NCBI GenBank assembly: GCA_026399025.1
Contig: JAPLRU010000035.1
Span: 1 to 41,842 of the forward strand
Direction of reading: 5' to 3'
Length of the DNA: 41,842 nt
From: Methylobacter sp.
GTDB lineage: Bacteria; Pseudomonadota; Gammaproteobacteria; Methylococcales; Methylomonadaceae
The notes beneath the pieces are model-generated. The model searched no databases. It was not told where the DNA came from and saw only the letters and a list, made by a program, of their open reading frames with translations. A program made the position numbers and the translations under genes. Of this stretch, positions 40,203 through 41,842 are shown piece by piece. Each line of letters starts with the position of its first letter. Positions within the stretch are counted from its first letter, which is position 1.

Positions 40203-40485
40203 AAACTATCCTCCTGTTATTATTGTTATATTGTCAGTCAGAGTATTAAGTGTTTTTTAGCGCCCGATTATGAGCTGCGATGATTTGGCCGGTAAAACGA
40301 CATAATACATGATGGAGTTTGGTGAAACAAAAAGCAAATCAGGGGGGCGGGCAAACCCATTAAAACATCCGGTCAAACAAGGTATTAGTAGAAAAGTGAG
40401 CGTTCAATGCGGAGTTTTATAAGGTGGCTTTCGATAACCGGTCTTGCTAAAGTTTTCCGGTATTTATCCACTACACAAACATAAT
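40203..40485. other. intergenic region
   Basis: No gene or convincing RNA is seen. It must hold the promoters of the two divergent genes on either side. No good ribosome binding site precedes the kinase start. Confidence 0.4.
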
Positions 40486-41046
40486 ATGATTATTATCAAA
40501 TTGGGCGGTAGCCTGTCTCGCTCGGAAGCGCTTGTTAATTGCCTGAATGCGGTAGAAAAAAACTACCCGGACACGCCGGTGGTCATTGTTCCCGGCGGCG
40601 GCGCGTTTGCCGATCAAGTCAGGCTTGCGCAACAGCACTGGCGATTCGACGACAACACCGCGCATCGCATGGCGCTGTTAGCCATGCAACAAATGGCTTT
40701 ACTGTTTAAAGGACTTAAACCCGATTTTGCCGTCGCCGATAGCGTTCCGGCCATTCAAGCATTATTAAACTCGCAAAAAACCGTTATCTGGTCGCCGGAT
40801 ATTATTGAACTCGATAACGCAGGCATACCGGCAAGCTGGGATATAACCTCGGACAGCTTGGCGGCATGGTTGGCCGACATGCTGTCGGCCAGCGAACTTA
40901 TCCTGATAAAGTCAGCCGCTATTGACGCCAAGCTGAGCCTGCATCAACTCGCCGAGCAAGCTATAGTCGATAAAGCGTTTTGTGGTTTTGTCGCGCAAGC
41001 CGCGTTTAAAGTACGCGTTGTTAGTGCACAAAGCCGGCGTGGATAG
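40486..41046 (+). CDS. mfnE: amino-acid-kinase family protein, MfnE-like
   Basis: 186 residues from ATG 40486 (MIIIKLGGSLSRS); the upstream ATG at 40444 would add 14 residues unlike the family. Nucleotide- and phosphate-binding motifs of the aspartate/uridylate kinase fold are IIKLGGSL and VIVPGGGAFADQVR; DDNTAHRMALLAMQQMALLF and WDITSDSLAAWLADML complete the pattern. MfnE in archaea and methylotrophic bacteria phosphorylates 5-(aminomethyl)-3-furanmethanol phosphate in methanofuran synthesis, and methanotrophs need this cofactor for formaldehyde oxidation. The identification is by pattern and organism context, so another small-molecule kinase is possible. Confidence 0.75.
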   Translation: MIIIKLGGSLSRSEALVNCLNAVEKNYPDTPVVIVPGGGAFADQVRLAQQHWRFDDNTAHRMALLAMQQMALLFKGLKPDFAVADSVPAIQALLNSQKTVIWSPDIIELDNAGIPASWDITSDSLAAWLADMLSASELILIKSAAIDAKLSLHQLAEQAIVDKAFCGFVAQAAFKVRVVSAQSRRG

Positions 41047-41310
41047 GAGCATTCGCCCAGCGTCTGAAAAAATCATGGGATGCGCCATTTATCGAATGCG
41101 GACGAGCGAAAACCAATAAATAACGAATGCTTGGCCGGACGTTACGTATAAGTGCGGTATCCAGCGCCACGAATTTTGACCCAAGTTTTTTTGGCTTTTT
41201 AAAAATATAGAAAAATCAGTCGGTTGTGTGATGGTGGTTTAGCTTTGGGTAAATCAAACTAAATCTCCTGTATACTGCTGCACAACTGGCCTTAAGGTTT
41301 TTTTAGGCCA
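41047..41310 (+). promoter_or_regulatory. CRISPR leader region
   Basis: The stretch is AT-rich from about 41180. TATACT at 41271-41276 may be the -10 box for array transcription; no good -35 is seen at standard spacing. Immediately before the first repeat CTGGCCT (41286-41292) pairs with AGGCCAG (41305-41311), a hairpin whose last base is the first base of the repeat. New spacers should enter on this side. Confidence 0.6.
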
Positions 41311-41743
41311 GTTCTCTGCCGTATAGGCAGCTTAGAAAAAAAACATAAACCAATTCTTCTTCAAGCTCCTGTTCTCTGCCGTATAGGCAGCTTAGAAAGA
41401 ACAACTCATCAATCACCAATGTGTTGCCGAGTTCTCTGCCGTATAGGCAGCTTAGAAAAATAGGGTTGCTGACGCGCTGTGAACGGCCATGTTCTCTGCC
41501 GTATAGGCAGCTTAGAAAGAGGTCGCTTCTATTCGCATGTCCGAGATGGCGTTCTCTGCCGTATAGGCAGCTTAGAAAAAATATCGACCAACTCCATTAG
41601 CGTGCGCCGAGTTCTCTGCCGTATAGGCAGCTTAGAAAGGAAAGAGCTCTTTGCTGGTCGCAGTCCAAGTGTTCTCTGCCGTATAGGCAGCTTAGAAAAT
41701 ACAAAGCGGTTCGAAATGGAAGCTTATTCTGTTCTCTGCCGTA
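41311..41743 (+). CRISPR. type I-F CRISPR array, seven full repeats and one interrupted
   Basis: The 28-base repeat begins GTTCTCTGCCGTATAGGCAG and ends CTTAGAAA; copies start at 41311, 41371, 41431, 41491, 41551, 41611 and 41671 with no variation. Seven spacers are each exactly 32 bases. The repeat sequence and the 28/32 spacing are those of type I-F (Csy) systems. An eighth repeat starting at 41731 keeps only its first 13 bases before foreign sequence begins. No cas gene lies in the window on either side. Spacers show no obvious match to other parts of this window. Confidence 0.97.
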
Positions 41744-41842
41744 ATCGGGTCGGGGTAACGGGATTGCGCCCGTCACCTCTCCCACACCACCGGTAATGCG
41801 GTTTTCCGCAACGGCGGTTGAATCCAACAGCCTATGCTGTTG
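41744..41842 (-). mobile_element. 3' end of a group II intron inside the eighth CRISPR repeat
   Basis: Read on the minus strand, the sequence contains a domain V-like hairpin: ACCGCCG (41812-41818) pairs with CGGTGGT (41786-41792) and encloses TGCGG-AAAA-CCGCA (41797-41810). GGTGGTGTGGGAGAGG then leads into a domain VI-like stem (ACGGG/CCCGT) and the end CCGACCCGAT at 41744. These are hallmarks of bacterial group II introns, and the pairing needs a G-U pair that exists only on this strand. The intron-encoded protein and 5' end must lie to the right of the window. The 3' exon is the first 13 bases of the repeat, read in reverse. Confidence 0.85.

Follow-up and report, generated by a model that had tools for sequence, protein, structure and literature searches.

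Bacterial group IIC introns are the closest described systems. In the solved E. rectale IIC complex of PMC10190682 the insertion point is preceded by a DNA stem-loop, then by a short spacer and an IBS1 of four bases, and PMC8919778 describes terminator-associated bacterial-C introns. The element described here resembles the introns of both sources in its 4-nt IBS1, the IIC-like reverse transcriptase of a relative, the stems at its other sites and the absence of target duplication. It differs in that the hairpin at the CRISPR site lies astride the insertion and not upstream of it.

In integron-linked group IIC introns attC serves as the stem-loop target, whereas the CRISPR repeat discussed here is cut in its loop. 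The likeness is that there, too, a IIC intron resides in an array of palindromic sites; the link of such introns with integrons is the subject of PMC7923331. In the M. tuberculosis complex, too, a mobile element splits an array region, the direct-repeat (CRISPR) locus, which PMC5310062 presents as a hot spot with 0, 1 or more copies of IS6110. Against this hot spot stands the one case found here. IS6110 is a DNA insertion sequence and not a retroelement. In the portion of the open-licence literature that was covered, no case of a group II intron within a CRISPR repeat came up, and the parts consulted of PMC4853749, PMC12479173 and PMC8919778 contain no such intron either. The novelty is the landing site, and the element itself is ordinary. 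A retroelement appears to have cleanly split an array of adaptive immune memory, and both junctions can be read.

The locus lies at the end of the analysed window, i.e. the whole stretch of 41,842 nt, which is the entire contig C119 of a Methylobacter sp. draft genome (G000; 5.23 Mb in 138 contigs). The contig ends inside the intron, and the sequence that we take to lie on the other side of the insertion is found on contig C78. The features are as follows, with plain coordinates referring to the window:

41161..41310, plus strand: array leader, the 150 nt upstream of repeat 1, homologous to the leader of array 2
41311..41698, plus strand: type I-F repeats 1-7 GTTCTCTGCCGTATAGGCAGCTTAGAAA, all intact, and the six spacers that separate them, out of seven in the window (Rfam RF01317, 60-nt spacing)
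41699..41730, plus strand: spacer 7 (A7), following repeat 7 and preceding the broken one
41731..41743, plus strand: first 13 nt of repeat 8, GTTCTCTGCCGTA, which form the intron 3' exon on the minus strand (direct reading)
41744..41842, minus strand: last 99 nt of the group II intron, domains V and VI, terminus CCCGAT, running past the contig end
C78:1-136, minus strand: intron 5' end, 136 nt; the reverse complement begins GTGTGCCCAGC, with a GTGTG start
C78:137-151: missing 15 nt of repeat 8, TAGGCAGCTTAGAAA, adjoining the intron 5' end
C78:184-1711: 26 intact repeats (from the reading of C78)
C78:1744-1759: truncated last repeat, broken after 16 nt

Array 1 thus has 35 repeat positions (7 + 1 split + 26 + 1 truncated) and 34 spacers, 27 of them beyond the insertion. 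The seven window repeats are mutually identical and 28 nt long, and each scores 44.5 bits with the Rfam model CRISPR-DR4 (RF01317; gathering threshold 35). A type I-F array is indicated by this 28-nt I-F repeat, by the leader and by the I-F Cas proteins found in the genome.

An earlier note, made from the window alone, had claimed that the eighth repeat breaks off and runs on into an intron 3' end in reverse complement, and the break is confirmed at 41743/41744. It had interpreted this as a group II intron inserted into a type I-F repeat, and had expected, past the contig end, an intron-encoded reverse transcriptase and an intron 5' end of the form GTGYG, followed by the remaining 15 bases of the repeat and by further spacers. 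The minus strand of C78 does carry GTGTG, and the 15 bases and 26 intact repeats come after it. Both intron termini are intact and the two half repeats rebuild one repeat: the 13 nt on C119 and the 15 nt on C78 add up to the exact 28-nt sequence, with no duplication and no loss. Group II introns insert without target duplication, and the exact restoration of the repeat is in accordance with such an insertion. On the minus strand the insertion point is between CTGCCTA and TACGGCAG, the cut falling within the loop of the repeat hairpin. The intron is antisense to array 1, as the earlier note had stated. We consider it very probable that an intron of the IIC family has inserted into repeat 8, on the minus strand, of this 35-position type I-F array.

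We note that, for the CRISPR copy, the assembly covers the first 136 nt and the last 99 nt, the interior with the reverse transcriptase and EBS1 being absent, and that we infer the joining of C119 to C78 from the sequence, as no contig spans it. The 99-nt 3' end recurs, complete or shortened (67 nt on C98), at the ends of four further contigs (C67, C73, C57 and C98), each time with different flanking DNA. Its presence at five contig ends with differing flanks marks it as the end of a multicopy mobile element and not as a chance sequence. The same multiplicity leaves room for a rearrangement in place of a simple insertion, in which recombining intron copies, or a join made in assembly, would have set intron sequence beside a broken repeat, since there are at least seven copies and the junction contigs end inside the intron, so that flanks cannot be paired by contiguity. 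Nevertheless, the intron termini are intact at both junctions and the two flanks together restore one perfect repeat; moreover C119 carries the leader and C78 the broken last repeat, and the repeat loop variant GTATA occurs on both sides, whereas the loop of array 2 is GTGTA. We therefore give a rearrangement very little credence.

Intron junctions were found at seven 5' ends (C78, C24, C111, C98, C91, C50 and C62) and five 3' ends in G000, and at all of them the contig ends inside the intron. The GTGTG 5' end and the 3' end of the CRISPR copy are identical to those of the other copies. The group II character of the element is indicated by the GTGYG 5' end and by a 3' terminus common to five places in G000 and to relatives. 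The intron 5' end occurs in 17 of 101 genomes, G000 included; as relatives we took 20 places from the 5'-end matches, which are a part of all matches, and the 5' junction was readable at 18 of these. Three full-length relatives (L055, 1871 nt; L065 and L066, both 1874 nt) share the CCCGAT-type 3' terminus of the G000 copies, and open reading frames of 439 aa (L055) and 416 aa (L065) were found. The L055 protein, read from an internal methionine (417 aa), contains RVT_1 and GIIM domains and passes the group II reverse transcriptase/maturase model TIGR04416 (377.8 bits, cut-off 300). Among solved chains its nearest match is the GsI-IIC reverse transcriptase (4e-112), followed by 7uim/7uin (1.8e-86), which we take to be the E. 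rectale IIC complex; the full-length relative L055 accordingly carries a reverse transcriptase/maturase of the IIC type. In G000 the same protein matches a 55-aa C-terminal fragment at C73 with 71% identity, and two other reverse transcriptases with 34% and 30%. As for the RNA, two full-length relatives match the Rfam model D1-D4-3 (94.2 and 89.3 bits), and L065 was reported by the domain V-VI model RF00029 at 40.3 bits (gathering threshold 40); at the thresholds used, that model reported neither the intron 3' ends of G000 itself nor that of L055. The start of domain V reads CCGCC, which presumably corresponds to the CGC triad of IIC domain V. Judged by the reverse transcriptase sequence of its relative L055, from which the class is read, the element is an ordinary IIC-type intron.

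Diverged or partial pieces resembling the intron family are present at C131:30105, C56:60744-60836, C87:12045 and C121:16106, which suggests a long residence in the lineage. On C98 (L013, 1-5014) one intron copy is situated at each contig end, in the same orientation, and the ca. 5 kb between the ends contain a monooxygenase A-B-C operon (PF02461, PF04744, PF04896) of the particulate methane monooxygenase kind. Five of the seven intron copies (C111, C98, C91, C50 and C62; L031-L035) come directly after similar short palindromes, e.g. GGGGCGCGATGCGCCCC, and C50 has another palindrome copy ca. 60 nt farther upstream in inverse orientation. These palindromes seem to be a dispersed family of repeats that supplies the intron with targets. 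A second, different group II intron is found on C114 (L036, 1-2050), with a 448-aa reverse transcriptase frame and an RF00029 score of 57.8 bits; it adjoins a GCAGGC-rich palindrome.

The distribution of exon sequences points to a common target word. All seven 5' exons in G000 end in CCTA, as do 17 of the 25 exons from G000 and its relatives (counted by eye). In the alignment to the Rfam D1-D4 model, the candidate EBS1 is the loop that caps a domain I hairpin. When 14 loci were given, five returned no loop, and the loop reads UAGG in six of the nine relatives that did. Three kinds of loop and exon covary: UAGG occurs with CCTA or CTTA, UAGC with GCTA, and UGUU with GGCA or GACA. Since the changes of the loop match those of the exon and pairing over 4 nt, with G-U allowed, is seen in all eight relatives having both a loop and an exon, we identify the two as EBS1 and IBS1; this is a comparison by eye and carries no statistics. 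The word CCTA is present at the CRISPR junction, the EBS1 for that copy being read from the relatives. There the repeat reads GCCTA, which is a mismatch to the fifth EBS1 base of L055 (UAGGG). On the minus strand CCTA, within CTGCCTA, is present in 44 exact repeats of array 2 and at 34 of the 35 positions of array 1, the split one being counted.

The stem upstream of the insertion gives a different picture. At all 24 non-CRISPR junctions a stem lies within the last 36 nt of the exon and ends 1-6 nt short of the intron, the energies (DNA parameters) ranging from -1.3 to -14.3 kcal/mol. As a background control we used the 127 CCTA sites in the first 40 kb of the window, 68 of which have such a stem and 59 none; 18 of the 24 family stems are within the lowest 5% of the background energies and six are outside. 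No stem of this kind was found in the 36 nt upstream of the CRISPR junction. This failure concerns the CRISPR insertion site and not the element. The locus is thereby a natural test of how strict the IIC requirement is for a DNA stem on the 5' side of the target word, as the word is present and the usual stem absent.

The earlier note had suggested the hairpin of the repeat as the target. Guidance by a hairpin could take two forms, either an attack in the loop of the repeat's own CTGCC/GGCAG hairpin or the use of an inter-repeat stem, in which GGCAGAGAA of the previous repeat pairs with TTCT..CTGCC of the split repeat and the spacer serves as the loop. PMC10190682 describes the recognition of a 5' stem-loop and then of IBS1 by IIC introns, and with a 60-nt exon the inter-repeat stem (-5.9 kcal/mol) stops 2 nt short of the junction, as stems do at ordinary IIC targets. 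At the equivalent position, 26 of 27 repeats tested in array 1 (C78 side) and 42 of 44 in array 2 also have a stem of one kind or another that ends 1-6 nt upstream. However, 26% of the 127 background CCTA sites equal or better -5.9 kcal/mol, which makes the stem an ordinary one, and with a 76-nt exon the stem vanishes because the upstream repeat prefers its own hairpin. As regards the first form, the arms of the repeat's own hairpin straddle the insertion, so that a cut in the loop sets the hairpin astride the intron and not upstream of it; the usual IIC form of the suggestion is thus unsupported. We note that in the 60-nt constrained test the exons of L055, L070 and L072 also fail, the test being weak in both directions. 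Given the results with 36, 60 and 76 nt, hairpin guidance is the main rival but in our view rather unlikely, and a route guided by sequence is the one we moderately prefer. As the usual upstream stem is missing, the event is best seen as an ectopic insertion into a word of which the two arrays together contain about 80 copies, and guidance by the EBS1-IBS1 pairing is the likeliest course. According to this sequence-guided reading, the intron RNA-protein complex would pair its EBS1 loop (UAGG in most of the relatives read) with the CCTA of the repeat, in target DNA that is perhaps single-stranded at replication; the intron would then reverse-splice into the repeat and be copied by its own reverse transcriptase.

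A second mark is found at the last repeat of the array. The 16 nt of this truncated repeat are followed, after a gap of 15 nt, by CCAG + TGGGCTAAAACTCGTT, which is similar to intron nt 7-28 with a 2-nt gap. The exact 16-mer TGGGCTAAAACTCGTT occurs nine times in G000, i.e. in the seven intron copies, in the C131 fragment and at the array end, and its reversed control not at all; one mismatch adds a single further place, on C69, apparently inside a gene. The local alignment score of the array-end fragment is 34, the best of 1000 shuffles being 29, and there was no other above-chance intron match in the 460 nt tested at the array end. One explanation is that the array is a recurrent intron target whose broken last repeat marks an older, second insertion, and both the confinement of the 16-mer and the alignment score speak for it. 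Nevertheless, the match is only about 20 nt long and in the other orientation, it has no intact GTGTG and no 3' part, and there is no CCTA in the exon; a deletion joining a fragment to the array end explains the mark equally well. We hold a recurrent target to be improbable. The fragment may be the remnant of an older insertion or a piece joined by deletion, and it is too short to decide between the two. The broader proposal, that type I-F repeats with their multi-copy CCTA beside a hairpin arm are usable and recurrent landing sites of IIC introns and that this array was hit twice, seems to us quite doubtful. If true, it would mean that I-F arrays act as multi-copy targets for IIC introns.

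The search of genomes for the same junction, also proposed in the earlier note, gave no second case of an intron in a repeat; the junction patterns detect only the same position, the same orientation and a GTGYG start. The pattern TCTWAGCTGCCTNGTGYGCC had two matches in the genome_contigs collection, from which records near G000 may be left out, one in Cytophagales and the other in a Mogibacterium MAG. Both were taken as chance matches, as no CRISPR repeat is seen in the stretch read around them and no second I-F core in 8 kb of either (no copy of AAGCTGCCT and one of AGGCAGCTT in each). With up to 2 mismatches, the junction was found among 311 genomes of the order in G000 and, with two mismatches each, in G227 and G285, which are chance matches in 3-kb loci lacking the I-F repeat core on either strand. 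Among 369 genomes drawn from the class, exact CTWAGCTGCCTRGTGYG occurs in G000 only. A 14-base pattern of the 3' junction matched at least 120 stretches of viral contigs and is too short to mean anything. An empty-site allele was looked for in 23 genomes of the genus with a 129-nt query (end of B0, B1, B2) and was not found: ten genomes match, G000 included, and among the matches listed the others are at most 91% identical and none is full-length, which is what shared repeats would give.

Array 2 is situated on C34 (L014, 20012-22681), adjoining the genes of cas6f/csy4 and Cas7fv; it has 44 exact repeats with the loop GTGTA, and its last repeat is degenerate (GCAAA loop) and unbroken by an intron. 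The Csy4/Cas6f protein scores 137.1 bits and Cas7fv 489.7 bits, the latter pointing to the I-Fv variant. As the leaders of the two arrays agree at 133 of 152 aligned columns, array 1 is probably served in trans by the I-F Cas genes of C34. The consequences of the insertion for immunity can be predicted in terms of which spacers lose function. It is established group II biology that an intron antisense to the array is unable to splice from the pre-crRNA. The Cas6f hairpin of repeat 8 would be destroyed and the two flanking spacers (A7 and B0) disabled, the crRNA of spacer A7 being left without its 3' repeat hairpin. If the CRISPR copy is as long as its relatives, the intron would set the 27 distal spacers ca. 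1.9 kb farther from the leader. The intact repeats 1-7 suggest that the insertion missed the leader-proximal repeat, the hit having probably fallen outside it since this is the repeat that templates new ones.

The spacers of both arrays (34 + 42) were compared with the window, with L030-L074 and with the L055 intron, and none matched above chance. The best matches outside the own array are 17 nt long with 94% identity (E 0.043), from B2 to L065/L066/L054 and from C21 to the window. The gene beside the leader of array 1 (window 40444-41046) resembles the MfnE phosphate kinase family at 85 bits, far below the cut-off of 300. A locus on C136 (L037, 520-5900) encodes Cas1, a separate reverse transcriptase frame (241 bits, under the group II reverse transcriptase cut-off of 300) and a Csm6-family protein next to an array of 36-nt repeats; by its gene content it has the appearance of a reverse transcriptase-linked CRISPR system of type III.
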